Of a DNA stretch of 64,000 nt, positions 9,661-63,948 are shown piece after piece (the stretch's first letter is position 1; each line of letters starts with the position of its first letter). The DNA is taken from NCBI GenBank assembly GCA_012845835.1, contig JABAKD010000006.1:3544506-3608505 (forward strand), read 5' to 3'. Source of the DNA: Undaria pinnatifida (Eukaryota; Sar; Phaeophyceae; Laminariales; Alariaceae). The notes below the pieces were generated by a model. That model was not told the origin of the DNA and made no database searches. It saw only the letters and a program-made list of their open reading frames with translations. Both the position numbers and the translations under genes were made by a program.

Positions 9661-9760
9661 AGAACCAAAACGCATTCGAAGCTGTCACCCGTATGCAAGA
9701 AAGTAAGCACACGGTGCTGAAGTTCGCCCCACGAGTGGTTCTTAGCACGACGCAGGTCAC

Positions 9761-9925
9761 CCTTCATGCGACCACCGCTCACCTCAACGCTGCGCTTCGC
9801 GCTCTTGGTGCACGCGATGCCTGCCTGATCGGTGAAAACCCGACGTGCTCCGTCTTGGAGGGATGCGAGGGTCTATGGTCTAATGGTTACGGCTATGCAT
9901 GAAAGGAGTACCTCCCCCCGCCCCT
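9761..9925 (+). mobile_element. Short retroposon with C-rich tail
   Basis: Contains GAAAACCCGACGTGCTCCGT, GATGCGAGGGTCTATGGTC, CGGCTATGCATGAA and GAGTAC, then a C-rich tail. More copies: 13840-14010, 15245-15350, 17270-17400, 22690-22975, 23506-23700, 25608-25740, 59120-59310, 60800-60890 and 61490-61590, in both orientations. Confidence 0.75.
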
Positions 9926-10218
9926 CTTCTACAACACCTTGCGGAAAAAGACAAACCCGAAAACGAAAAAATTGAACAGCCCTCAAGAGCGAGTTGGCTC
10001 TTGCCGTCCGCCCCTGCCTAAAACGCCTGCTCTTCCCCTATACAGGACATGTTCGACCAGACTAAAACACGTCGGAGCAATTTTGAAACGATAGTTTTTT
10101 ATACTGCTACACCTTCCCGCCTTCCCCTCCCCTCCCCCCCACCCCCCGTGTTTATCATTTCACGCCGACTTCCCCCTATCCCCTTCTACGTTTATTTACC
10201 CCTCCCCCCCCCCACATT

Positions 10219-23547: not shown

Positions 23548-26438
23548 CTCAGTTTGTGCATGGCCGGTTTCGACATAGACCCTCGCACCCCTAATATGTC
23601 GGGATGAAGCACGTCGATTTTTCACCAACCAGGCAGATATTGCTTGCACCAAGCGCGAAGTGCCGTGAGGTGTTCGGCGAGTCGCATGTAGCGTGAACCG
23701 CATCCTCTTGATTTGGCTGCGGGGGCGGGGGCTATCTCAGAATCAGTCCTCCGAACCCCATCTAGCCCGTCGACCAGGTGGACCCATGTTTCGATGTAAA
23801 AAACGACGCCATTCCACAGCAGAGGTGTGGAGGTGTACTTTTTTTTGGCTGAGGCTCCTCACACGAGGATCTCTATATCTTTAGAGGGTGACCGTGCAAA
23901 AGTTGGATTTGGGTAGACTTGGTCGAGTGGCTTACGTTTTCTTCGCAAATGACACAGAAACCCACTGGCGATTGATAACACCAAATGCGTCATTTTTTTG
24001 CTACAATGCTTGGGTGCACTCCATCCCCTCCCTCTTTCCGTCTCTCCTTCCTTTCTTTCTCCTTAACGTCCCCCCCCCCCCCCCCCCTTCCGCCCTCCCT
24101 CCCGCCGTCTTGTCCTCCCTGCCCTAATACTCGCCATTCACACTCTTTCATGACCCCTCCCCTAGGTCCGCTGCCGTAACGCCATCATCATCAAGCAGAA
24201 CCGGTTCTCCGCACGCTTCCCTGTCCAACAGAACTATCAGCAGCAACGGGAGCAGTGGGAATGTGAGTTTGTTCAGGGGTTTCGATGGTGGTCAGGCGTT
24301 TTTATGGGGGGTTTAGGTGAGAGGGGAGTGTGGAGTCTTCTTTCTCCTCCTTCCCAGTGCTGTTTTATACCAGCCTGGGTCTAAATGCAAGATCTTTTTT
24401 TCTTCTATGAGCAATTAACCCGTGTTGGGGATTCCTCACGGACAAAAAGTGACAAGTGAAATTGACGTTTGCAGCATCCTTCACAAGAGGCTCTTTAGCC
24501 CAGACTGTCAGATTGGGTGGCGACGATTTTGCGGTCCGACTCCGGCACAAGTGCCTGTGAGACATGCGCACAGCTCGTGCTGCTGCCATGTGTGCTGCAT
24601 GCTCGCACCGGGGTAATACGAATGAACGAGCTTATGGACACATTGTTTTATCGCTGTATATATGGGTAACAAATGGGTTATTACGAAGTTTAGCCCAACC
24701 TGATTGCAATGTGGCTTGTATTCGGACCCAAGATGGAAGCTAAGTAGGGGTCTCCAGCTAAGGCGGCGGTGTGCCAGAGCAATGTGACCGCCTTATAGAG
24801 GGAACCCGCCTTGTTCGTTCCCGGTCATGAGTGCAATTCCCCACTCGCGCCAAGCGACTGTGGCCCCCTTGTATAGGGATGCCGCCTTGCTCAGACCGCC
24901 TTGTTGGGGAGCGCCTACTGGTGTAGCGTAGTACCAACAACGCGCGACCGGAGTATCGCGCGGCTCGTAAAGAGGAGTTGCGACCCTTACATCGATCGAG
25001 CTCACAGCTGACGCATTTGAAACAATCTTGTTAAATACCCTGGTAGCGTAACAACAGGTAGCAAAAATATATGTACTGGGATAGGTACACGGGTGGACCG
25101 ACGCGCCCCCCCCTCCCCTGCTACTGAACATACATATGAATATAAAAGGTGGGGGACCTCTCCCCCCGCTTGCCACAATCTGAGGGACCCCCCTGCCTCC
25201 CATGCCACAAGGTAGGGGACCTCCCCCCTCTCGACACCAAGTAAGGGAATCCCCCCCCCGCCACAAAGTGGGTGACAGCGAGGATGTCGTCGAAAAAAAC
25301 ATGATGGCCGGGGCTGAAGAAGCACTCTACCCCTACCCTATCTTAGCCTATATCCTATCCCTCTACTAACTCCGCCATAACCCCAGCCCCAACCCTGAAC
25401 ACAACCCTCCCGTAGTCCTACCGTGTCCTACTCCAAACCATATACTCTACCCTGTACACGCCTCCTCTATCCACATCTAACCCTAACCCTAACCCTAACC
25501 CTGTATCCCTACCCGAACCCTACCCCAACTCCACTTTCAGCGCTCCGGAGGGATAACGGCGGGAAAGTAGCTCCTGAAAAGCATGACGCTTGGGCTGAGC
25601 AAGATTGGGAGGGGGGAGGGGGGGGGGGGAGTACTGGTTTCATGCATGTAGTCGTTGTCGTATGACCATAGACCCTTGCATCCCGTCAATGCCGGGACGG
25701 ATGCACGTCGGGTTTTAACCCACGAGGGGGAGGGGGGGTAGGTAGAGATAACTAGCGCTACCCTAAGCTACCCTACCCTGCCCTACCCCAACCCTACGCT
25801 AACCCTACCCTAACCGTATCATATCCCTTCCCTTACTCTACCCTAACCCTACCCTATGCTGCCCTATCGCACCCTACCGTACGCTACCCTACCCTACCCT
25901 ACCCTACCCTTTCCCTACCCTACCCTACCCTTCCCCTACCCTTCCCTATCCATACCCTATCCATGCCTGCCCTAATATATAATCCTAACCCTACCTTACC
26001 CCCGCGTCCAGCTATCTGGACAGATGACGGTGAGGAAATCGTCGCTGAACAGCATGATCCTCGGCCTGTACAAGATAGGAAAGGGAAGAGGGGGGGTGAG
26101 TAAAAAGCAATAACTCTACCCTACCCTGCCCTAACCTGCCCTCCCTCCCCTATCCCTACCCTAACGCTACCCTACCCTGACTCTACCATAACCCTACCCT
26201 ACCCTACCCTACCCTACCCTACCCTACCCTACCCTACCCTACCTTACCCCACGCCCAGCTGTCTGGAGGGATGACATCGGGGAAATCATCGCTGAACAGC
26301 ATGATGCTGGGCCTCAACAAGATAGGGAAGGGGGGAGGAGGGGGGGGGGGCGGGAGCAACTGTTTGGGCCAGGCTCACACGCGACCGGCGCAGGGAGGCG
26401 TGTACATCAAAATGGACTTCGTGAGGATAGAACACTAA
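13256..26438 (+). CDS. ArfGAP-domain protein, ten-exon gene model
   Basis: Predicted GTPase-activating protein for Arf-family small GTPases, acting in vesicle traffic at membranes. Exons: 13256-13340, 17426-17546, 17849-17965, 18162-18225, 20500-20622, 21819-22282, 23037-23168, 24166-24262, 26012-26095, 26259-26438; total 1467 nt, 488 residues, and all junction phases agree. The ArfGAP domain covers about residues 60-180: zinc ligands C80, C83, C100, C103, arginine finger R108, then the GVHISKV and MGNSLANSF motifs. The tail is rich in Ser, Asn, Pro and Gly and has no other domain I recognise; the layout resembles SMAP/AGD-type ArfGAPs. Weak points: the start exon, the frame of exon 6 beside the assembly gap, and the last two exons, which are copies of each other. 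An exon could be hidden in the gap. Confidence 0.8.
13515..14660 (+). repeat. Echoes of ArfGAP exon 1
   Basis: Copies at about 13515-13558 (GATGACGATGACCATCTGCA, donor intact), 14078-14112 (donor lost), 14172-14213 (in-frame TAG, donor intact) and 14468-14515 (frame and donor lost). G-rich sequence lies between them, and a tandem array of about 47 bp, four copies, runs at 13568-13765. Confidence 0.75.
13840..14010 (-). mobile_element. Short retroposon, reverse copy, within the exon echoes
   Basis: GTTACTCATTTCATGCACAG, CCATTGACCCTCGC and ACGTCGGGTTTTCATCGACC, ending GGCGAGTCGTATGA. Without a long G tract. Confidence 0.7.
14665..15585. repeat. G-rich intron sequence with a retroposon copy
   Basis: 15245-15350 is a reverse short-retroposon copy between two G tracts (GGTACTCAGTTTGTGCATGG). 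The frame 15184-15576 runs through it and is not a gene. 15585-15645 is the GAGATCGAAGATTTTGTCGA core. Confidence 0.6.
15646..16085. repeat. TGTTG-rich and T-rich stretch
   Basis: Ends in three copies of a TTCGCTCGTCCGATGTTCTG unit (15921, 16000 and a diverged one). No gene supported. Confidence 0.5.
16090..16985 (+). repeat. GTGCCGGT-family repeat with inserted GTT-headed repeat
   Basis: Words GGCAACCGGCACTA and AATTTCACAGGCACTGTA recur; the GTT/GGT run and GTT-headed repeat occupy 16565-16870. Related to 30600-31130, 48480-48640 and 52795-53260. Confidence 0.65.
17426..17546 (+). CDS. ArfGAP gene exon 2
   Basis: Acceptor CCGTTCCGCAG, then 39 complete codons, including [13 protein letters not shown], a typical helix leading into an ArfGAP zinc finger. 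It enters in phase 1 and leaves in phase 2. The only donor that keeps phase and gives [14 protein letters not shown] is AAG|GCGAGG, a GC-type donor; there is no GT at this place. A short retroposon with a C-rich tail lies directly upstream of the acceptor. Confidence 0.75.
17849..17965 (+). CDS. ArfGAP gene exon 3: zinc finger
   Basis: Acceptor TACCGGCAG; donor CACAG|GTGGGG. Encodes [13 protein letters not shown] followed by [18 protein letters not shown]. The four cysteines have the ArfGAP spacing C-x2-C-x16-C-x2-C. The last two bases AG join the first G of the next exon to make the arginine-finger codon of the CxGxHR motif. The intron before it carries a 17-base C tract. Confidence 0.95.
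18001..18150 (+). repeat. (CCCTA)n array in ArfGAP intron
   Basis: About 28 degenerate CCCTA units directly before the exon 4 acceptor. Confidence 0.9.
18162..18225 (+). CDS. ArfGAP gene exon 4: arginine finger and core
   Basis: 64 nt encoding the second part of the catalytic motif ([17 protein letters not shown]). Its acceptor TTTTTCTGCTCCAG is directly preceded by about 150 bp of (CCCTA)n, which supplies the pyrimidine tract. Donor CAG|GTAAAC, phase 0. Near-consensus for ArfGAP families. Confidence 0.95.
18329..18672 (+). mobile_element. Inverted-repeat element with a TTAA MITE inside
   Basis: Ends CTACGACAGAGGTATA and CCTCTATCGTAGCACGCG are inverted copies. The MITE (18516-18607) sits in the element's own TTAA: AGAGGTATTAAC on the left and GGGGTTAAGCTCCC on the right. 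Uninterrupted elements read GAGGTCTTAAGCTCC at 42024 and similarly at 45212 and 36305. Confidence 0.8.
18690..18930. repeat. GGGTC/GACCC minisatellite
   Basis: Repeats of CACGGGTCGGGTCGG alternating with AGGAGGTAGCTCGAAATYTC. Similar at 29925-30000, 36665-36715, 37745-37890, 45400-45620 and 47545-47790. Confidence 0.85.
19430..20040 (+). repeat. GGT-rich array in ArfGAP intron
   Basis: About 600 bp of GGT/GTT/GTC triplets. Val/Gly frames on + and Thr/Pro/His frames on - are artefacts. Confidence 0.9.
20500..20622 (+). CDS. ArfGAP gene exon 5: end of GAP domain
   Basis: 41 codons, phase 0 at both ends, encoding MGNSLANSF and [18 protein letters not shown], the usual C-terminal part of an ArfGAP domain. 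Acceptor TATATAG follows a C-rich stretch; donor AAG|GTTAGC. The intron before it holds the 18.3-18.7 kb nested transposons and the GGT-rich array. Confidence 0.95.
21119..21618. other. Assembly gap (500 N)
   Basis: Exactly 500 undetermined bases, probably a placeholder of unknown true size, followed by (CCCG/CCCT)n at 21619-21795. An exon could be missing. Confidence 0.99.
21819..22282 (+). CDS. ArfGAP gene exon 6: Asn/Ser repeat and Ser/Pro tail
   Basis: Acceptor TTTCATTCAG, 24 bases after a long C tract and 200 bases after the assembly gap. In the frame entered from exon 5 it reads through (AAC/AGC)n as an Asn/Ser run, then [18 protein letters not shown] and a Ser/Pro/Thr-rich stretch; the donor GG|GTATGG gives phase 2, as exon 7 requires. 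The first 15 codons, however, look right only in the neighbouring frame ([12 protein letters not shown], the expected ArfGAP end). An indel in the CAA/CAG run is therefore likely. Confidence 0.7.
22690..22980. repeat. Short-retroposon fragments and C tract
   Basis: 22690-22760 reverse copy (CATGCATGACTGTAATCTTC); 22920-22975 TGTACTCATTCATTGCACAA followed by a C tract ahead of exon 7. Confidence 0.55.
23037..23168 (+). CDS. ArfGAP gene exon 7
   Basis: Acceptor CCCCTACAG after a CCA/CCG-rich tract. Encodes [17 protein letters not shown] followed by [14 protein letters not shown] with strong GC-ending codon use. Donor CG|GTGAGA, phase 2. No family domain recognised; tail region of the ArfGAP protein. 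Confidence 0.8.
23285..23700 (+). mobile_element. CTACGRTAGCCCCCC MITE joined to a reverse short retroposon
   Basis: 23288-23520: TACAGTAGCCCCCCCC, ACGAAATCGCCGGTTTCGAA, GTCGAGCAGCCACGAAACGT. At the G tract it joins GTTACTCAGTTTGTGCATGG (23546) and on to GGCGAGTCGCATG. Confidence 0.65.
24166..24262 (+). CDS. ArfGAP gene exon 8
   Basis: Acceptor CTCCCCTAG, donor AAT|GTGAGT. One base completes the split Arg codon, then 32 codons of Ser/Thr/Asn-rich sequence ([19 protein letters not shown]). Preceded by C-rich sequence at 24000-24130. Fits as a linker in the tail. Confidence 0.75.
24733..25020 (-). repeat. AAGGCGGTC-family repeat, reverse copy
   Basis: GACCGCCTTATAGAGGGAAC, CTCGCGCCAAGCGACTG and GACCGCCTTGTTGGGGA. 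Then a CGATCGAGCTCACAGCTGA core at 24940-25015. Confidence 0.7.
25258..25620 (+). pseudogene. Decayed copies of ArfGAP exon 9/10
   Basis: The older copy near 25268-25322 keeps ATGTCGTCG and AACATGATGGCCGGGGCTGA. The second, from 25541 after acceptor CACTTTCAG, keeps CGGGAAAGTAGCTCCTGAAA, with an in-frame TAG at 25568-25570. CCCTAA-type repeats lie between them (25475-25510). Confidence 0.7.
25608..25740 (-). mobile_element. Short retroposon between G tracts
   Basis: GAGTACTGGTTTCATGCATG, CCATAGACCCTTGCATCCC, CACGTCGGGTTTTAACC. Confidence 0.7.
25742..26250 (+). repeat. (CCCTA)n arrays around the duplicated exon
   Basis: 25742-25990 and 26105-26250 are degenerate CCCTA/CCCTAA arrays, each ending just before an acceptor. 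Confidence 0.85.
26012..26095 (+). CDS. ArfGAP gene exon 9 (duplicated exon, copy A)
   Basis: 28 codons, phase 0 at both ends, acceptor CGCGTCCAG and a strong donor GGG|GTGAGT. Encodes [20 protein letters not shown], a short amphipathic basic/hydrophobic segment. It is closely similar to exon 10, and older copies lie at 25541 and 25258. Because it is symmetric it can be included or skipped without a frame change. Confidence 0.5.
26259..26438 (+). CDS. ArfGAP gene exon 10, terminal (duplicated exon, copy B)
   Basis: Acceptor CACGCCCAG after (CCCTA)n. Encodes [20 protein letters not shown], a glycine run from a G tract, and then a short tail to TAA at 26436-26438. A GTGAGG at 26421 could be a donor, and exon-like repeats follow at 26762, so the true 3' end is not certain. 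Confidence 0.5.
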   Translation: MSGGMTSGKSSLNSMMLGLNKIGKGGGGGGGGSNCLGQAHTRPAQGGVYIKMDFVRIEH

Positions 26439-48640: not shown

Positions 48641-48892
48641 GTATCGTAACTTCACACAGAAACTGCGCGGCCAGCCAGCCCCAGCCAGCAAAAGACCCAC
48701 GCCAAAAAACACAACCGAACCAAACCGAACCCAGCCGAAGCAACCCTTTCAATCTAAGCAACTCCGACTTAACGCCAAGCTCGCCAAGCTCGACTAAAGC
48801 GACTCCAATTAGAATCCAAGCAACCCCAATATAATTCAATAGAAGTAGGGGAGACAACGACCCCCTTGATCACCCCCCCCCCCCTCCCCCCC

Positions 48893-49465
48893 CTCCGCTC
48901 CGTCTCGAAAGGGATGCGTGGTCAATGGTCAAATGACTAAGGCAAGCAACAAATGAGTACGCCACCCCCCCCGCCCTTCTTCCGCCCTCTCAAGATTGAC
49001 GAACCCACGAAACACGTCACATCACCCCCCCCCCCCCCCCCCCCCCTCGACTGCCCCTGTACCTCACCGATGTCTCAGCCCCTCCACCCTCCCCCCCGGC
49101 CAAAATCACGCAAAAAAAAAAGCGTACGGATTTTTTCTTACGTGGAGCACGCGATCGTTTACCTCCCACCCCCTTCCCCAAACCACCCAAAACAAAGCGT
49201 AGGAACACCTTTACGCTGCGCCTTTACCGCTAACGGCCAGCCCCATTGGTGTTGGCAGAATTACTGATGGAGGTGCAGGAGGTGAAAGAGGACATGCTGC
49301 CCGAGGGCGATGCTGGCATCCCCTCCTCTCTGCTGCTGCTCGGTGGGAGGGGGTAGGAGCGGGGAGGGCGGGGCGTACTCATTTGCTGCTTGCCTTAGTT
49401 ATTTGACCATTGACCACGCATCCCTTTCGAGACGGAGAACCAGAAAGGGGGGGGGGGGGGGGGGG
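48893..49465. repeat. Inverted pair of retrotransposon tails
   Basis: 48898-48966 and 49372-49440 are near-perfect inverted copies (TCTCGAAAGGGATGCGTGGT, CAAATGACTAAGGCAAGCAA), each next to a C/G tract, with the exon-like 49259-49342 between them. Confidence 0.8.
49259..49342 (+). CDS. Orphan exon-like segment
   Basis: Between acceptor GTGTTGGCAG and donor G|GTGGGA, in phase 1 on both sides, it encodes LLMEVQEVKEDMLPEGDAG and a short Leu/Ser end. Codon use looks coding. It lies on the opposite strand to the PH/coiled-coil gene, 1 kb past that gene's stop, between two inverted copies of a retroposon tail. No partner exon is proven. Confidence 0.35.
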
Positions 49466-49679
49466 GGTGCAACGAAAACTGAACATTTCGGAAGTTGGTC
49501 TACTAATATGCATCAACCCTGTGTATTGTAGGGTTTACCGTCTCACAGTCTGTGACCACATAATGTGCATCTCTTTAGGATGAAGAATCAGCATGGACAC
49601 TGGGCGTACTGACGTCGTCGGGTATACAGAAAGAACGGTTTAAAGTCAAGACAACACACACTGTTTACTGGAAACAATT

Positions 49680-56400: not shown

Positions 56401-59400
56401 AGATCGGGGGCGTACCTCGTCCTGCTTGGTGTTAACCTCGTTCGTCAGCTCCATCATCTGCACCATCGTACGCTCGGAAGTGAGCCTCGATTCCACCAGC
56501 TCCACTTCCTTCGCGTTTATCTGACGCAACAAAGTAAAACAGAAAACATATCATATTAAAACGGGGGTGGGGGGGACGAGGAAACAAAAATGAGCACAAC
56601 ACAAAAATAGGGAATTGAATGAGAGAACAAGAGCAGAAAAAAACTGACAACACAGGCTTTTGAAAGAATGGCGGCACACCTCCCCCCCCCCCTCCGGTCC
56701 CTCTATCTTCCCCCTAGCCAACCCCAACCCTCCCCAAACCCCTTCATACCTCGGCCTCTTTAGCCATAGCCAGCTGCTCCAGCTGATTCCTCAGCAGGTC
56801 CAACATCTCCGGGTCCTCCCCCTGGGCACTCTTCCTGTGCAGCGGAGGTGTAGCCGACGTCGAGCTCCCCGCCGCCTTCCCCGGGCTCTTCCCGCCACCC
56901 CCACCGCCTCCCGAAGGGGGGCGAGGGGAAACCCCGGTGGTAGCAGACCCCGATCCCACCGAAAAAGACGCCGCTGTGGGGAGAGACCCCCGGGGGCCCC
57001 GATGGGGGGGGGAGGAGATGGCAGGGGGGGCGCGGCTTCCCCCCCCTAGGTCGAATACGGAAACGCGACGGCTTATGCCGGGCCTGTTGCTTCCAGCGCC
57101 GTCGCTGGTGCTGGTGCTGCCGGGGCCTCGCATTTTGGCGGCCATGGCTCCGACTGTAGCCTGAGAGGGGGGGATTACGAATTGGGGGCGGGATTGGGGT
57201 TGGGGTTGGGGTGGGGTAGAGGGGGGGTTGGGGTTGGGGGGGGGTTGGGGATGGGGATGGGGTTGAGGTTAGGGATTGGGTTTGGCGTTGGCGTTGGGGT
57301 GGGGGTTGGGGCTGTGGGTGGGATTGGCGTTGGGTTGGAGTCCTGGTTGCGGGCGTGGGGTGGGGAGGTGGCGGTGTTTACGATTGAGGCACGATACGGG
57401 CGACGGTAGTGGTACGTAATGTAAGCGATAGCGAGAGCACACATGGGACAGATTACGATCTAGATGAATCTGCCGGCATAAGATGTTGCGCAGGATCTGT
57501 ACGGTACATATCCAACCCAGAAAATAGGTGGCAATACCGTAGGCCACGTAGAGATCATACGCAGGTGGGGTGGGGGATGGTGGTGGTGGCGGCGGTGTTG
57601 GTAGCGTTAGCAAGCTATGTCAAACAAGCAAAAAAAAATTACCAGGGTATTTCTAATTGGTGCTTAGAGTATAGGTCGGTGCCCCGATGGAGTAGGTGAA
57701 TCTCGCCCCTACTAATGTTACGATCGTGAGTAAAAAGTCTCATTGAGTGCAAGTATTCGTGCTCGTAGAGACTTTTCTTGCATAAAAAATGACGAGCGGA
57801 AAGCGCGAGAGATTGAGCTAAACAAAATCGATGAAAATCGACGGGCATAGAAAAGCTGAAAAGTGGGAAAGCTGAACCCTACGCGCGATAAAATGAAGGC
57901 AAGTGTCGGGGCCCAAAGAAAGACACCTGTGCCCACGGCTTGTCCAGAAGGTCGCTAAGGGCGAAAAAATCAAACATCTTACGAGTTGAGCTGGAGAGTA
58001 AAAGCGATGTTAACAAGAAAAAAAATGGTTCAATTTTGCTTTGAACGCCGTGACAACAGGTGTAGCCCCTCCTCCCTCCCGGCACACGCCTTAATTTTCA
58101 TCACGCAAGAGGGTTCAGCATTTGCACCGCTCGTTGACTAGCATCGAGTTCAACGTAGGAGCCCCGAGACCGTGGTTGGATTCCATTGTTGATCGCCTTC
58201 CTACACGCAGAAGGTGCGGCAGTCCGCCTCACAAGTGGGTTGTTACTAGGATGCAGCTCACGCTTCACAGGAGTTGCCGAACTCCTCTCGGCGTTTCGTG
58301 TTCGGTGCGCGATCATCAAGTCAGGAGCCTCACAAAAGTTAGGCGTGCAGGTACCTGTACCGTACCATGTGTCGAGGGGCATCTGCTTACCTGTGTGAGA
58401 AGCCGCCGTATACTGGAAACGAGGTCGTTCCGCATTTCCTTGTCCGCCACCTGAACACAAGAGAGGTACAGACAAACAAAAAGACAAAACCAATAAGGAC
58501 CGTCAATAAGAACAAGAACGAACAACAGGGAAGACAAGGACCAACGTGGCAAACAAAAAAGTGGTCATATGCACTGAAGCGCAAAATGAAAACCCACGAA
58601 AAAAAACAAAAACATCAAGAGCCAAACGAATTAGAAAAAAATCCGAAAGGAAAAACAAACAAAAAAACACAAAAAACAACGTAACTCAACACAACCTTCA
58701 CAAACATGTATAGCTAGAGCATGAACGAAGAACACATTTGTCAAAACAAGATCAACAAGAACGAAAATGAACAAAAAAAGACGAAAGCGAAAAAAAAGCA
58801 GTAACATACTTGGTAAACGCGAAAACAGAAAGAAAAAAAAAATCATCCCTTTGACACTTGACTATCGTATGGGGAAAAGTTGACGACGAAAATGGATGAT
58901 TACGATATCATCTGCCACTCCTGGTTGGCGATGATAATGATGGTGTCCGCATGACAACAACGCAAGGCCTCTTCTTACGGGACGGGCGCGGCATGATCCT
59001 ACTCATACTGCCGCGCGGTTACGCTACTATTAATAGTAAACGCTTGAAAATATCTCAATCGACGTTTTTTTTCGGTCGCTATACACAGTTAACGAAGTCG
59101 AGAACGGCAGACCAAGCTATACCCCCCCCGCTCCTCCTTCATCACCCTTCATGCGACTCGCCGAGCACCTCGCGGCGCTTCGTGCTCGGCGCACGCGATG
59201 TCTGCCTGGTCGGCGAAAACCCGACGTGCTCCGTTCTGGCACCGTAGGTATGCGAGGGTCTATGGTCTTGGGACTACGGCTATGCATGAAACGAGTACAC
59301 AACCCCCGCCCCTCCACCCTAACGCCATGCGACTACGTCCATGCATAAAATGATCATCGTCTACAATGGGCATCCTTCCCCCGCCCTCTGAGGCTACAGT

Positions 59401-62400
59401 GATATTGAGAAGGAAAAAAACACGCACAACAAAACTCGACAAAACCAGGAACAGCAGACGCCTTCCTCTTCCCCCAACACACTAGCGCTTCCTCCGAGGA
59501 TCCCCCCTTCCCCCCTTGTCCCTTCACGCCATCCCACCTGCACGATCACCATCCTTCCCTCTTCCGCCCCCCGTCCACTGGAGCCAAAAGTGGGAACGAA
59601 AAAAAAAAGGAAAACAAAAAGGAAACATCAAAAAAATCACCGAACAAAACCGGGAGGGCAGACGCTCCCCCTCCCTCCCAAGAACAAGAACGCCTCCATC
59701 GATCCCCCCTCCATCCTTTCAGGCCATCTCACCTGGACAATGACCATCCTTCCCTCCTCCGAGCCCTGTCCGCTGGCGCGCATATTGAGGAAAGTGCTGT
59801 CATCTTCGTTCGAAAGCCCGTGCAGATCCCCATGCCCTAGGCTTACCTACCAAATAAAAGGGGGACAGAAGAAAATGAATACAAAATTCAACATTTAACA
59901 TCCAAAATCAACATCCAAAGTCAACATCCAAAAGCAACAACCAAAACCAACAATCAAAACTAACACGATCCCTGACCTTACGCCGTACAACTGGAAACCC
60001 GTTTTCGGGGACAACTACCTTGGAATTGGGTTTGGGGGCTCTGTAAAAGGGCTTAAGCTACGAGCTCATCGACATCGTACATGCAGGTGTTTCCAAGGAA
60101 TACATGCCTCTTCCCGGCAAAATCAATGCAAAAATCAACATCAATATCAACAACCGAAAGCAACAATCAAAACAATAAGCGACATCAAAATCAACCCAAA
60201 TATAACATAAAAATATACCCAAAATCAAAATTCAAAATCAGCACCCTGACCTTGAGCTGCGAGCTCATCGGCAGCGCGCGGACGAGTTTTCCCCAAAAAA
60301 TAAGATGATCCTTCCCTGCAAAATGCTCCACATTGACATCAAATTTCACCAACAATGAAAACCAACAACAATATCAAAGTCAACATCAAAGTCAACAACC
60401 ACAACCAATATCGACATCAAAATCGGCAACTAAAGTGAACAACCAAAAATCGAACGTCAAAATCAACGAACAAAAGCAAAACCAACAACACCAACACGAC
60501 CCCTCACTTTGAGTTGCGAGCTCATCGGCAACGCACGGACAGGTGTTCTCCAAATAATAAACTGTCCCTTCGCGGCAAACATAAGCTTTCCTCCCCCCTC
60601 GCCCTCCTCCACCACCGACATAGATGCCTCCACTTGTCGAGTTTTCCCTGAAAAACAGGCGGTGTTTAGAGGGGGGGGGGGGGGGGGGGGTGATTGTTGA
60701 GTGGTGGGTAGCAAACGTATCAGTTGATGGAATATTTTTATTATTCACCAACATAGACGCCTCCACCTGTCGAATTTTCCCCATAAAAGAGGCGTTATCA
60801 AGTACGAGGGGGGCGGGGGAGGGCGGTACTCAGTGTCATCCATGGCCGTAGTCTTTGTCTTTACATCTAGATCATGACACGAGGGACTCGTCTCATCTCC
60901 CGATGTGTGCAAATTAATAGCTCACCTTCCCACACAAAGCAATCGACACCCTGGCTCAGGCCCTCCTTGATGGCCTCCAGCCTCTCCTCGAACTCCAATA
61001 CCGCGTTAGTGTGCAGCTGTGTGCTCCCCCGATTGCTTTGAGACCTATACAAAATAATTTGGTTGCGAAAAAACAAACAGCAGGCACCATGCACGTATGT
61101 AAGCACGCCATCCGACTCAAAACAAAACCACCACTAGACCAGAGTCCTTAGCACAGAAGTACACATGAAACATTCTCCCACATAAAACACCGAACATCAG
61201 AGTGATGGCACTCATTTCAGAGGCAATCAACCCGCCCCGCTCTCCTCAATCCGACCAAACAATTTCCCCCTTCGCCCCTGAAGCCCAAGCGAGACGGTGA
61301 TTCCGGGGGAGCTCGGGTCGCTTCCAACATTCACGGCAGTTCTGCTAGCGCCACTGCCCTTCGCTCCTCCTCTCAAAATATTGATATGACCCTCCACCCC
61401 CCCCTAATCCCTGCACCCATTTTTTCCCTCGCCCTTTGTAAACACGCCTAATGACCCCCGTCTCCTCAATGTCTTGATGCGCCCCCTGCTCCGTCCCGGC
61501 ACCCGGCATTGTGGGAATGCGAGGGTCAATGGCCTTAAGATTACGGCTATGCATAAAATGAGTACACCCCCCCCCCCCCCTCCTCACCCCACCCGTCTCC
61601 AGATAAATGCTTGGTCGACGGTCAAATGACTACGTCAAGCAACAAACTGAGTATCCCCCCCCCGTAACACCCCTCGAGGCCAAGCTAGATGCTACCACCA
61701 GTAGAACTCGGGTGGCTTCCATCTCATTGGCGGTGCCACTAGCCCGCCCCCGCCGCCCTCGAAGCCGTGGATACCCCCCCCCCCAAGCCTACGTAGGTAT
61801 CGAATCCATCGGCCCCTCCCGTTCTCCCCCCCGCGCCTCTAATGCCTCCAAAAACATGCATTTACTCACCCTTGAAGTCCAAGCGAAACGGTGCTTCCGG
61901 GGGAGCTTGGGTGGCTCCCGATGTTATTGGCGGTCCCATTAGCCCCGCCCCCGCTGCCCTCAAACCCGTGGATGGCGCCCCTCCAAGCCGCGGTGGGCGT
62001 ACGGAGGGCGCTGCTGTCTAGCCCCCCCCTTGGTCGGTTCGACTCCTGCACACCAATAAAACAGGACATGAAGAGAATTTTTTATGAAAAATAAGGAAAC
62101 AAAAAGGAATGGAAATTGTGACAATAACAGCAACAGCAGCAACGTAGTGCTGGCAAATAAAAAACAAGTAATGACACAACAGCAGCAACGATAGCGACAC
62201 ATGCAAAGATGACACAACAACAGCGGCGACACAATACATCAGCATTCATGATAGTGACGATACCCCAAGCAACAATGCCACCACGGCTAACAATGACAGC
62301 AACACCACCAAAACAACCGCCAACACTTTCACAACCACAACCACCACCACCACCACCAGCCGCAACAACAGCAACAACAACAGCAACAACAGCAACAGCA

Positions 62401-63948
62401 ACAGCAACAACAACAGCAACAACAGCAACAACAGCCACAGCCACAGCAGCAATAACAACAACATCAACTACAACAACAACAACAACAACAATAACAACAA
62501 CAACAACACCAGCAACAATAACAACCACAGCGACAACACCCAACAACAACAGCAACAACACCCAACAACAGCACGAACACGAACACCACCAACACTATCA
62601 ACAACCACACCACCAACCACAACACCAACAACAACCACAACACCCACAACAACCACACCACCAACACCACCGCAAAACAAAAAAAAGAAAAGAAAGAAGG
62701 AACACCCATGATCTCTCTCACCGTATTGGCGACGAGAGCCGCGGCGGAGGCGGCGGCCATGGCGGCCGATTGCTCCGCCTTTTGCTGAGCCTTGCGCGCT
62801 TCTTCGAGCTCTAGATTTAGCGCGTGCACCGCCTTCGATAGCGCGCGCTCCGAGTCCGTCGCAGCTGAAACAACGGTTGGTTACGTCATGACGTCAGAAA
62901 AAACAACAAACGGAATACCACTACCATGTCTTACATATGTTGCAAAAAACTGGAAAAATGGCAGGCGGGGGGGGGGGGGGGGGGGGGGGGGGGGAGGGGA
63001 ACACATTTTGAAAAGTAAGCATGAAGCAGACGAAAAACAAAACAAAACTGCGCGCCTGTTATAGTCCTATCCCAGGTTCAACGTGAGCATCGCCTTCGAT
63101 AGCACGCGCTCCGAGTGCCTAGCGGATGCAACAGTGATTGCATGTTACAGCTGTATATGTTAGATGTATCATATAGTACGGGTTCCCCAACAAGGCGGTC
63201 TGAGAAGTGTGATATCCCTATATAAGGCGGTCAAAATTGCTTGGCGCGACTGGAATGAATAAGGCGGCCTCTCTCTATAAGGCGGTCACATTGCTCTGGC
63301 ACAACACCGCCTCACTGGAGGACCCCTAAACAGTGCTGTAGCATGCTTTTAGGGTGATATTAGCGCGTTTTTAACGTGCTTCTTGCGTGCTTCCTGCGTC
63401 CTTCTATCATGCATCTAGCGTGCTTTCAGTGTGCTCTATGCGTGTTTTCATCCTGCTTTTAGCGTCCCCTGTCCCCTGCCTTACCTTCATGCAGAGGCTC
63501 TACGTAAACAATGCGGGCGGTCATATTGTTGTGGTACATCACGGCCTGTACTGGAGGACCCTACTGTACGTGAAACACGAGCGATGAACATATTTAAAAA
63601 AAAAAAGGGGGGGGGCGGACCAAGGAGAAAACAATGGATTATTTTTGTGACGTGTCACACGAACATTGCCTTCCGAAGAGTAAAAAGGAGAAAACCAAGG
63701 GGAAAACAAGAAACAAGGAACCAAAAGCAAGACAAAAACGGAAGCAGAATCGGAGGCGGAGGCGTGACGAGACGCCACGGGGGGGGGGAGGTAGTCTCAG
63801 TCCCCTACTTACCGTCCGCCTCTTGCTGGAGGCGTGAATTTTCCTCCTCCGCGGTTCGCCTAGCGCATCTTTCCTCGTCCAACACCTGGCTGAGGTTGCT
63901 AATCATCATGTCCTGGTTGTTCAGCCCCACGAGCAAGCCGTCCCCGTC
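50322..63948 (-). CDS. PH-like and coiled-coil protein, 3' part of gene (12 exons)
   Basis: Reads from 63948 down to a TAG at 50322-50324. Exons: 63813-63948, 62722-62864, 61870-62045, 60926-61044, 60508-60647, 59733-59846, 58391-58450, 56750-57160, 56416-56520, 55091-55195, 54147-54209, 50322-50444. The sum is 1695 nt and all phases agree: 564 residues and a stop, with the N-terminus beyond the window. Order: coiled coil (1-93), Gly/Ser linker, PH-like domain (about 165-296), Gly/Ser/Pro linker, coiled coil (about 415-545). Such an arrangement suits a membrane- or cytoskeleton-associated scaffold or motor tail; the family cannot be decided without the missing N-terminus. Confidence 0.8.
50941..51168 (+). 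CDS. Orphan exon-like segment, Pro/Thr/Ser-rich
   Basis: In the frame beginning DGIVYKPRTKTTSIPLDR the third codon positions favour C, and the segment ends at a good donor ACG|GTAAGA. It holds a repeated KFDALPPE / KFDTLPPP motif. It lies in the last intron of the PH/coiled-coil gene, antisense. Just past the donor, 51180-51230 resembles a common inverted-repeat transposon, so it may instead be a transposon edge. Confidence 0.3.
51663..52050. mobile_element. Hairpin-like inverted-repeat element
   Basis: Arms about 51725-51795 and 51985-52045 are about 90% inverted copies (CCATATCCAGCTGCTCCC / GGAGCAGCTGGATACGG). The centre has three CCCGTCCAAGCTGGAGCAAG-like units. Confidence 0.7.
52060..52290 (-). 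repeat. Reverse copy of the 661-1640 family
   Basis: TTTTGTCCTCCTCAAAAACG to TTAGCTCTCACAGCTGAAG. Confidence 0.7.
52795..53260 (-). repeat. GTGCCGGTTGAATAGTGCTT array
   Basis: About eight units of 35-40 bp (GTTGCCGGTATAGTGCCGGT), then CAAATCGCTTGGCACGACTG at 53079. Partial continuation at 53425-53530. Confidence 0.8.
53268..53410 (+). repeat. tRNA-derived SINE, body fragment
   Basis: GTGAGTTAGCAACACTCGAT, GAACCCTATGCGCGATAAAA, GTGACCACGGCTTGTCC; about 95% like 4825-4965 by eye. It interrupts the GTGCCGGT repeat. Confidence 0.75.
53640..54090. repeat. Right arm of a decayed long inverted repeat
   Basis: Partner of 49680-50250. Confidence 0.5.
54147..54209 (-). CDS. PH/coiled-coil gene, eleventh exon: coiled coil
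   Basis: 21 codons (three heptads), phase 0: MEGLQFDNEELRHETEVLRN plus Q. Acceptor TTTTTTCAG, donor CAG|GTGCGC. A 3.7 kb intron follows. Confidence 0.85.
55091..55195 (-). CDS. PH/coiled-coil gene, tenth exon: coiled coil
   Basis: 35 codons (five heptads), phase 0: IRMLKRQALEAVEDMEEMRR and NANVSMQLLKK. Acceptor TTCCTACCAG, donor AAG|GTGACG. Confidence 0.85.
55305..55490 (+). repeat. AAGGCGGTC-family repeat
   Basis: CCCCCTATAAGGCGGTCTGA, CAAAATCGCTTGGCGCGACT, ends GGGGGACTGG. Copy of 63180-63330. Confidence 0.75.
55690..56250. repeat. GTT-headed repeat fragment and reverse tRNA-derived SINE
   Basis: 55690-55790: GCATAATCAAGTCCATGGTC. 55945-56250: SINE on the minus strand with B-box GTTCGAATCC and A-box TGGCGTATCAGG, like 5926-6235. 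Confidence 0.75.
56416..56520 (-). CDS. PH/coiled-coil gene, ninth exon: coiled coil
   Basis: 35 codons (five heptads), phase 0: INAKEVELVESRLTSERTM and MELTNEVNTKQDE. Acceptor TTGCGTCAG, donor GAG|GTACGC. Confidence 0.85.
56750..57160 (-). CDS. PH/coiled-coil gene, eighth exon: linker and coiled-coil start
   Basis: 137 codons, phase 0. Acceptor CCTCTCAG, donor GAG|GTATGA. Starts ATVGAMAAKMRGPG, continues as a Ser/Gly/Pro-rich basic linker with RRVSVFDLGGG and a seven-Gly run, and ends DPEMLDLLRNQLEQLAMAKE, the start of the second coiled coil. The internal methionines might serve as a start for a short isoform; that is speculative. Confidence 0.85.
57175..57360 (+). repeat. GGGGTTG array
   Basis: Telomere-like G-rich sequence, GGGTTGGGGTTGGGG type, just upstream of the eighth-exon acceptor of the minus-strand gene, where it reads as C/A-rich pyrimidine-like tract. 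Confidence 0.8.
57720..58020 (+). repeat. tRNA-derived SINE, body variant
   Basis: GCGGAAAGCGCGAGAGATTG, GAACCCTACGCGCGATAAAA, CCACGGCTTGTCCAGAAGGT; same subtype as 140-340 (shared GAGTTGAGCTGGAG end). Confidence 0.7.
58391..58450 (-). CDS. PH/coiled-coil gene, seventh exon: PH C-terminal helix
   Basis: 20 codons, VADKEMRNDLVSSIRRLLTQ, between acceptor TTGTGTTCAG and donor CAG|GTAAGC. It matches the closing helix of PH domains (acidic residue, Arg, aliphatic heptad positions). Confidence 0.85.
58455..59110. other. A-rich intron sequence
   Basis: 58455-58850 is A-rich on + (U-rich in the transcript). 58851-59110 shows nothing recognisable. Confidence 0.6.
59120..59360 (+). mobile_element. 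Short retroposon, nearly full length
   Basis: Longest copy: CATGCGACTCGCCGAGCACC, GCGCACGCGATGTCTGCCTG, GAAAACCCGACGTGCTCCGT, ATGCATGAAACGAGTACAC. A partial second copy follows. Confidence 0.75.
59733..59846 (-). CDS. PH/coiled-coil gene, sixth exon
   Basis: 38 codons, phase 0: VSLGHGDLHGLSNEDDS, a Gly/Ser turn and EEGRMVIVQ. Donor CAG|GTGAGA. The acceptor chosen, TTTGGTAG, keeps frame with the fifth exon. A decayed copy of its 3' half lies downstream at about 59518-59590. Confidence 0.8.
59875..60505 (+). repeat. AACATCAAAATC array, interrupted by a MITE and exon echoes
   Basis: 59895-59965, 60120-60240 and 60355-60500 are CAACATCAAAATCAACA-like. 59985-60055 is a TTAA MITE relative (TACAACTGGAAACCCGTTTT). 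60055-60120 and 60250-60330 are exon echoes. Confidence 0.75.
60508..60647 (-). CDS. PH/coiled-coil gene, fifth exon: PH-like strands
   Basis: Acceptor CTGTTTTTCAG, preceded by a C tract; donor AAA|GTGAGG. Encodes GKTRQVEASMSVVEEG, an acidic loop, KLMFAAKGQFIIWRTPV and LPMSSQLK, with the alternating strand pattern and the Trp common in PH domains. Copies of its beginning (60738-60786) and of its end (60250-60330, 60055-60120) surround it. Confidence 0.75.
60738..60890 (-). repeat. Echo of the fifth exon's start, then a short retroposon
   Basis: On the minus strand 60786-60745 reads GGGAAAATTCGACAGGTGGA, as the exon's GGGAAAACTCGACAAGTGGA. 60805-60890 is a reverse retroposon copy. Confidence 0.65.
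60926..61044 (-). CDS. PH/coiled-coil gene, fourth exon: start of PH-like domain
   Basis: Acceptor TTGTATAG, donor G|GTGAGC. Encodes VLEFEERLEAIKEGLSQG and VDCFVWEG, a helix followed by what looks like the first strand of a PH fold. Phase 2 in, phase 1 out. Confidence 0.85.
61235..61790 (-). repeat. Echoes of the third exon and two retroposon tails
   Basis: 61235-61340 and 61670-61785 resemble 61872-61985 (e.g. AAGCGAGACGGTGATTCCGG against AAGCGAAACGGTGCTTCCGG). 61490-61590 and 61600-61660 are retroposon tails with C tracts. Confidence 0.7.
61870..62045 (-). CDS. PH/coiled-coil gene, third exon: Gly/Ser linker
   Basis: Acceptor GGTGTGCAG, donor GG|GTGAGT, phase 0 in and 2 out. Encodes a Gly/Asn/Ser/Pro-rich linker (ANGTANNIGSHPSSPGSTVS). 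Two decayed copies follow in the next intron near 61670-61785 and 61235-61340. Confidence 0.8.
62110..62690 (+). repeat. CAA/CAG/CAC triplet array in intron
   Basis: About 560 bp of CAACAGCAACAACAAC-type sequence; Thr/Gln/Asn and Val/Leu/Cys frames are artefacts. Confidence 0.9.
62722..62864 (-). CDS. PH/coiled-coil gene, second exon
   Basis: Acceptor TTGTTTCAG, donor ACG|GTGAGA. Encodes ALSKAVHALNLELEEARKAQ, an Ala-rich helix (AAMAAASAAALVANT) and related coiled-coil sequence. A decayed copy of its 5' part lies in the preceding intron at 63081-63130; the following intron holds the CAA/CAG array. Confidence 0.85.
62965..63130 (-). repeat. G tract and echo of the second exon
   Basis: 62967-62995 G tract. 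63090-63125 (GCCTTCGATAGCACGCGCTC) copies 62830-62857 (GCCTTCGATAGCGCGCGCTC). Confidence 0.75.
63180..63470 (+). repeat. AAGGCGGTC-family repeat plus TAGCGTGC stretch
   Basis: Same order as 27600-28170: AAGGCGGTC units, GCTTGGCGCGACTGG, GGACCCC, then TAGCGTGCTTTC words. 63480-63805 shows no gene. Confidence 0.8.
63813..63948 (-). CDS. PH/coiled-coil gene, first exon in window
   Basis: Acceptor CTTATGGCAG, donor G|GTAAGT. 45 codons with LNNQDMMISNLSQVLDEER and ARRTAEEENSRLQQEAD: heptad-like, charged, clearly coiled coil. Leaves in phase 1. Upstream exons must lie beyond position 64000. Confidence 0.85.

Follow-up and report, generated by a model that had tools for sequence, protein, structure and literature searches.

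The minus strand of the window, i.e. the whole stretch of 64,000 nucleotides that was analysed, carries seven segments (a to g) that look like coding exons and form a single open frame via GT-AG introns, running from position 63948 down to 58391. With all boundaries, here and throughout, inferred from the sequence, these are exon a (63813..63948, coiled-coil-like and joined in frame to exon b by a GT-AG intron), exon b (62722..62864), exon c (61870..62045), exon d (60926..61044), exon e (60508..60647), exon f (59733..59846) and exon g (58391..58450). The start of exon f was set 9 bases further upstream, to 59846, on inspection of the letters; the version used in the search of its own flanks had 3 bases too many at the start. 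The intron between exons b and c consists mostly of a 400-base CAA/CAG-rich stretch (62280-62680). The preliminary description had named the gene for a PH domain and a coiled coil; the PH assignment is unproven, as Pfam gave no domain above the cut-off and a PDB search no match. An exon finder trained on 67 anchors (anchors being the Pfam-found exon matches introduced below) recovered only 6 exons from the window, and the counts make no use of it.

Seven partial exon copies, here termed echoes, had been noticed in the introns of this gene, and all seven were recovered as direct repeats, displaced by no more than tens of bases from the places first given. We set each of the seven exons against the 1.5 kb on either side of it and, as a control, against 18 stretches of 3 kb from elsewhere in the window (positions 1-54000). 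At E ≤ 1e-4, the own flanks yielded seven direct matches, from exons b, c, e and f, with E-values of 4e-8 to 3e-16 for a fixed search space of 1e6, against 0 matches in the 126 pairs of an exon with one of the 18 other stretches. Exons a, d and g (three of the seven) had no echo in their own flanks at the same threshold. Chance or low complexity as a source of the echoes was rejected on the basis of the 126 empty control pairs together with the swapped exon-flank control presented below.

Exon b has one echo, of its start side, lying upstream in the gene at 63074..63133 (minus strand, like all echoes here) with an offset of 261 bases; its acceptor AG has become AT, and the match was measured at 63074-63116 with 84% likeness (first placed at 63090-63125). 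Exon c is echoed twice downstream, both times by its end side. The nearer copy (61668..61789, offset 199) has kept the donor GT and aligns over 61704-61789 at 81%, or over 61668-61789 in a longer alignment (initially located at 61670-61785); the more distant one (61272..61352, offset 594), whose donor GT has changed to GC, aligns over 61276-61325 at 86% (earlier position 61235-61340). Both ends of exon e are echoed. The copy of its start lies upstream at 60746..60793 (offset 133, acceptor AG changed to GG), measured at 60746-60780 with 89% (originally 60745-60786). The segment 60118..60322 is a tandem copy of 60363-60579, i.e. of the end of exon e and the following intron, at an offset of 257 and with the donor GT kept: the two align through the splice site over 218 columns, the intron part reaching SW 33 against a null mean of 9, and the exon part was measured at 60252-60322 with 80% (previously 60250-60330). 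A third copy of the exon e end lies further downstream at 60053..60121 (offset 456); it has lost the donor, contains an in-frame stop and matches over that entire segment (60053-60121) at 76% (first given as 60055-60120). Finally, 59439..59584 is a tandem copy of 59644-59779, comprising the end of exon f and adjoining intron, at an offset of 195 with the donor GT kept; here the alignment through the splice site extends over 147 columns (intron part SW 36, null mean 9), and the exon echo itself was measured at 59538-59584 with 81% (formerly 59518-59590).

A conserved-looking frame had been pointed out at 60250-60330, and the peptide VRALPMSSQLK is indeed kept there over 33 bases, all four differences within it being silent. 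The echo at 60252-60322 differs from exon e at 14 of 71 aligned bases, and the differences outside the VRALPMSSQLK stretch comprise eight replacements and two silent changes. The four silent differences may have arisen on the exon's side, which would fit neutral decay of the echo: at two of them, the third exon e copy agrees with the echo and not with the exon. That third copy may itself be a descendant of the echo, which would qualify its agreement.

Echoes beside kinase, kinesin and TCP-1 exons

The survey beyond the window was based on 83 anchors, Pfam-found exon matches in kinase, kinesin and TCP-1 genes on many contigs, namely the best 30 of 127 listed kinase matches, the best 30 of 127 kinesin matches and those 23 of 34 TCP-1 matches that fell whole inside the sequence stretches taken. 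Being strong Pfam matches, the anchors do not represent exons at random; several of them share a gene, and the sample amounts to ~0.3 Mb of 511 Mb. Among them are two pairs of similar loci: the kinesin loci L039 and L040 share 3597 bases with 100% identity at a distance of 29 kb, and the kinase loci L023 and L024, 34 kb apart, are 98% alike over 2599 bases, reflecting either recent local gene duplications or assembly artefacts. Three further anchors (L011, L012 and L014) lie on the small contigs C45 and C50 (~200 kb) in kinase frames of 580-1107 codons, which are possibly not nuclear algal sequence. In the genome at large, the EsV-1-7 cysteine domain is hugely expanded, with 2164 first-look candidates, many of the 150 listed copies being situated on contig C30; expansion of this domain is a mark of brown algae.

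Echoes within 1.5 kb were found for 10 of the 83 anchors, amounting to 22 matches at E ≤ 1e-4, all of them direct. Two of the three matches at L067 concern intron only, its anchor beginning ~30 bases before the exon, so that 20 of the 22 are exon echoes. For the kinase and kinesin anchors, own flanks gave matches at 7 of 60 loci, compared with 8 of 1800 swapped pairs, in which an anchor was set against the flanks of loci from the other family; at the stricter E ≤ 1e-6, the figures were 5 of 60 and 0 of 1800. The excess of matches in own over swapped introns, which the preliminary description had named as the supporting observation, was thus found in the sample, and its remark that the echoes are not a peculiarity of one gene is borne out by the three gene families. 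Its further idea of a genome-wide process producing exon-sized duplications holds as regards the many genes and contigs of the sample and is not supported as regards size, since the echoes consist of an exon end of 24-131 bases plus adjoining intron, at offsets of about 80-950 bases.

The TCP-1 exon at L069 (5545-6250) has its end repeated seven times in the following intron. The donor GT is kept in four of these seven copies, leaving a row of possible decoy splice sites in that intron. A different splice site feature was seen at L063, where a kinesin exon apparently ends, at ~1671 on the gene strand, at a GC donor (TAAG/GCGAGT), pointing to a possible GC-AG intron.

Orientation, extent and decay of the copies

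The position of an echo depends on which end of the exon it repeats. The 22 sample matches at E ≤ 1e-4 comprise 11 copies of an exon start (within 15 bases) lying upstream and 11 copies of an exon end lying downstream, with no interior, wrong-sided or inverted copy among them. The seven window echoes all follow the same rule, which is kept at all 17 exon edges concerned (5 in the window, 12 in the sample). When the threshold was relaxed to E ≤ 0.01, 4 of 19 matches broke the rule (at L011, L021, L026 and L049; 15-23 bases, E=0.003), where about 1 would be expected by chance judging from 36 matches in 1800 swapped pairs. These four, together with weaker matches at L056 (one) and L054 (two), were excluded from the echo set; the weaker matches also include three short inverted self-matches inside the anchors L019, L026 and L047. 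The side rule follows from contiguous head-to-tail duplication, which forces it, while copies inserted at random would land on both sides. Doubling of a unit made up of an exon end and the following intron leaves the exon body next to the first copy, with the second stranded downstream; with a unit of intron and the following exon start, it is the last copy that borders the exon body, and the first is left upstream.

Direct orientation also prevails among local repeats in general. In 319 kb, we counted 166 direct versus 13 inverted nearest-copy pairs (~5 direct pairs per 10 kb), the copies being offset by 80-950 bases (5th-95th percentile; median 240) in a survey of pairs up to 1500 bases apart and matches of at least 40 bases, with L024, L040, L011, L012 and L014 left out.

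The extent of the duplicated unit was assessed on 28 echoes, comprising the 20 exon echoes of the sample, one at L031 (E=2.4e-4) and the seven of the window. In 26 of them, local alignment continues beyond the splice site. A comparison of the non-overlapping intron parts alone covered 27 echoes: in 19, the likeness exceeds that of introns exchanged between loci (p ≤ 0.05, the null being drawn from other loci and not from the same intron), and in 15 it exceeds that of shuffles. In the remaining 8 of the 27, no intron-side likeness was detected against swapped introns, which would be explicable if both intron copies drift freely. The marks of head-to-tail tandem duplication, namely direct orientation, adjacency and repetition of the intron part at the same offset, were all found. 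Within the sample, splice-crossing tandem duplication is genome-wide, as the preliminary description had guessed for the process behind the echoes.

The state of the copies bears on a first alternative, which we consider very improbable, namely that the echoes are alternative exons (cassette or mutually exclusive) derived from exon duplication and kept for a choice in splicing. The exon e echo at 60252-60322, being gapless and having retained both its donor GT and the 33-base reading frame described above, would suit such a role, as would the 18 of 28 echoes with an intact splice dinucleotide. However, no match in the sample spans a whole anchor and none in the window is a whole exon; each echo represents one exon end and consequently has only one splice site of its source exon. 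Frame-shifting gaps were present in 10 of the 28 echoes and in-frame stops in 7, and the differences at codon positions 1, 2 and 3 amount to 13.1, 15.6 and 24.5%, the values of 13-16% at the first two positions being too high for conserved coding copies. Splice bases were altered about as often as the remainder: 12 of 56 bases of the splice dinucleotide were changed (21%) versus 19% of the exon part. An active purge or retention of splice sites in the echoes was rejected on the same figures.

Replacement differences outnumber silent ones by 161 to 112 (ratio 1.44). By our own arithmetic, an echo drifting by ~14% beside an exon that accepts only silent changes should differ by ~24% at the third position and show a ratio near 1.3. 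The decay pattern thus fits one free copy next to one constrained exon. The age distribution is less accommodating: the identity of local direct repeats peaks at 75-85%, and only 5 of the 166 nearest-copy pairs in the 319 kb reach at least 95%. This scarcity of young duplicates counts against the explanation favoured below, inasmuch as a steady process does not predict it, and may reflect either a burst in the past or an assembly in which young copies have collapsed.

Repeat density and the origin of the echoes

We assign a probability of roughly 0.87 to the reading that the echoes are relics of small splice-crossing tandem duplications with neutral decay, and not products of exon-sized copying. 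Small head-to-tail duplications, at offsets of about 80-950 bases, would strike genes blindly. Where the unit spans a single exon-intron junction, the exon body would stay joined to the neighbouring copy, and this copy would go on serving as the splice site, provided that the proximal site is the one used; the other copy would be stranded in the intron, upstream in the case of an exon start and downstream in the case of an exon end. Since splice-crossing duplication would leave the protein unchanged, the event would be neutral; the intron would lengthen by one unit, and the stranded copy, along with its splice site, could mutate without constraint. Units that lie within an exon or enclose it completely would alter the protein and would presumably be cleared for the most part by selection. 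At the molecular level, replication slippage or unequal exchange may be the cause.

If duplications strike blindly, the exons themselves should not stand out as sources. Over 78 anchors (the 83 minus L024, L040, L011, L012 and L014), direct local repeats cover 8.8-10.4% of the flanks at 100-1500 bases and 6.8-7.6% of the nearest 100 bases; inside the anchor, coverage is 8.6% at depths of 0-20 bases, 6.9% at 20-40, 4.6% at 40-80 and 0.5% beyond 80. The 59 anchors of 100-400 bases gave 11.8% in the flanks and 11.4, 9.1, 6.2 and 1.3% at the four depths, and the 35 anchors of 160-300 bases 12.3% in the flanks within 500 bases and 15.7, 13.4, 8.4 and 2.8% inside; part of the deep drop over the 78 anchors is owed to long anchors (0.5% versus 2.8% in the mid-sized ones). 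Coverage thus shows no break at the exon edge and declines towards the interior, and exons do not clearly stand apart as sources. Local direct copies were found for 322 of 2000 non-anchor windows (16%; 44 with an inverted copy) versus 10 of the 83 anchors (12%; none inverted). Units of the observed lengths, if placed at random on anchors, would hold the anchor whole in ~20% of cases and fall inside it in 12%, and neither kind occurred among the 22 sample matches; selection against protein change would be a natural reason for their absence.

These data also speak to a second alternative, according to which exons are preferred sources, for instance because pieces of them are copied into neighbouring introns in an RNA-templated or transcription-linked manner. 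The up to seven recurrences of an exon end beside the one TCP-1 exon (L069) might be viewed in this light, as might the edges of the 35 mid-sized anchors at 15.7% versus 12.3% in the flanks, although this mild excess could arise if pairs with one member in a constrained exon decay more slowly. Over the 78 anchors, in contrast, edges (8.6%) are no denser than flanks (8.8-10.4%) and non-anchor windows have local direct copies at least as often as anchors (16% versus 12%), by which strong exon targeting was rejected; moreover, the copies extend into the intron, which spliced RNA lacks. We regard this alternative as most unlikely.

Hardly more credible to us is a derivation of the echoes from dispersed transposons or introner-like elements. 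The window does contain dispersed families, including one (59227-59312 and 61487-61579) in the same introns as the echoes. Copies of this family occur at 9757-9926, 25610-25727 (minus strand), 59142-59320 and 61487-61583, with parts at 48871-48992 and 49344-49469 (minus strand); they are about 74-82% alike, occur on both strands and lie outside the seven echoes. In the 511 Mb, exons b, c and f and three echoes matched only themselves and the second exon c echo, and the stretch 60000-60600, which includes two exon e echoes, found matches elsewhere only within positions 328-501 of the query, an ACA-rich intron filler. For the five of the seven echoes covered by this search (60746-60780 not among them), no dispersed copies were thus found of the kind that the preliminary description had named as speaking against its view, in a procedure that skipped common words and scored the best candidates, so that short diverged copies could escape. 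Every echo is, in addition, direct and beside its own exon.

Birth of the introns by tandem duplication of an AGGT-containing exon segment (the Rogers model), with the echoes as the two ends of the founding duplication, would likewise leave copies of exon ends within the intron and on the sides observed, and such intron gain is documented elsewhere (PMC4974935 and PMC2891723). Under this model, however, offset and intron length must be equal, while the offsets in the window of 261, 199, 594, 133, 257, 456 and 195 bases face introns of 948, 825, 825, 278, 661, 661 and 1282 bases (133-594 versus 278-1282, none equal), and the echoes run on across the splice site into the intron, so that this origin was rejected for the window introns and can be given scant credence for the echoes.

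Splice-crossing duplications as a possible record of intron growth

Intron growth is usually credited to transposons. A broader proposal, tentative and on balance doubtful at present, would be that kelp introns grew largely by waves of small tandem duplications, of which the splice-crossing ones left thousands of datable exon-end fossils, serving as one-sided neutral clocks with a constrained partner and as standing decoy splice sites for new exons or splice shifts, the scarcity of copies above 95% then marking a past burst. Neutral tandem duplications are hard to date because both copies drift, whereas an exon end held by selection beside a drifting copy would supply a built-in reference. A single genome would then suffice to count, date and polarise the events. 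The side rule would quickly tell tandem duplication from other ways of copying, and the echoes would amount to a fossil record of intron growth. If echoes are common to other brown algae, intron lengthening would become directly countable and the origin of decoy splice sites would be shown.

Tandem duplication as such is already known, as are internal duplication of genes and the gain of introns by duplication. The splice-crossing, one-sided, fossil form seen here was not found described in the literature searched, which covered part of the field. Tandem exon duplication in eukaryotes was reportedly described by Letunic in 2002 and by Kondrashov and Koonin in 2001. Internal gene duplication in eukaryotes was treated by Gao and Lynch 2009, as cited in PMC4974935. 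Both resemble the kelp echoes as small tandem duplications within genes that include coding sequence; there, whole exons or pieces enter the protein or make new introns, whereas in the kelp a single exon end is copied along with intron, stays outside the coding exons and decays. Introners and other transposon-made introns (PMC9860276) share with the echoes the occurrence of repeats within introns; unlike them, the echoes include no dispersed copies (for the five of seven searched) and no inverted ones, and always lie beside their source exon. The cases of the potato RdRp gene (PMC4974935) and of Drosophila (PMC2891723) share with the echoes a local tandem duplication that takes in splice signals, a copy coming to lie in the intron; compared with these, an existing intron grows in the kelp and no new one is made, the offsets in the window differing from the intron length. 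An 83-base duplication in intron 1 of the potato RdRp gene, mentioned in passing in PMC4974935, is like the kelp echoes a silent small tandem duplication within a gene. In the kelp, by comparison with that passing mention, the unit extends across the splice site, a constrained reference is available in the source exon, and many genes are concerned.
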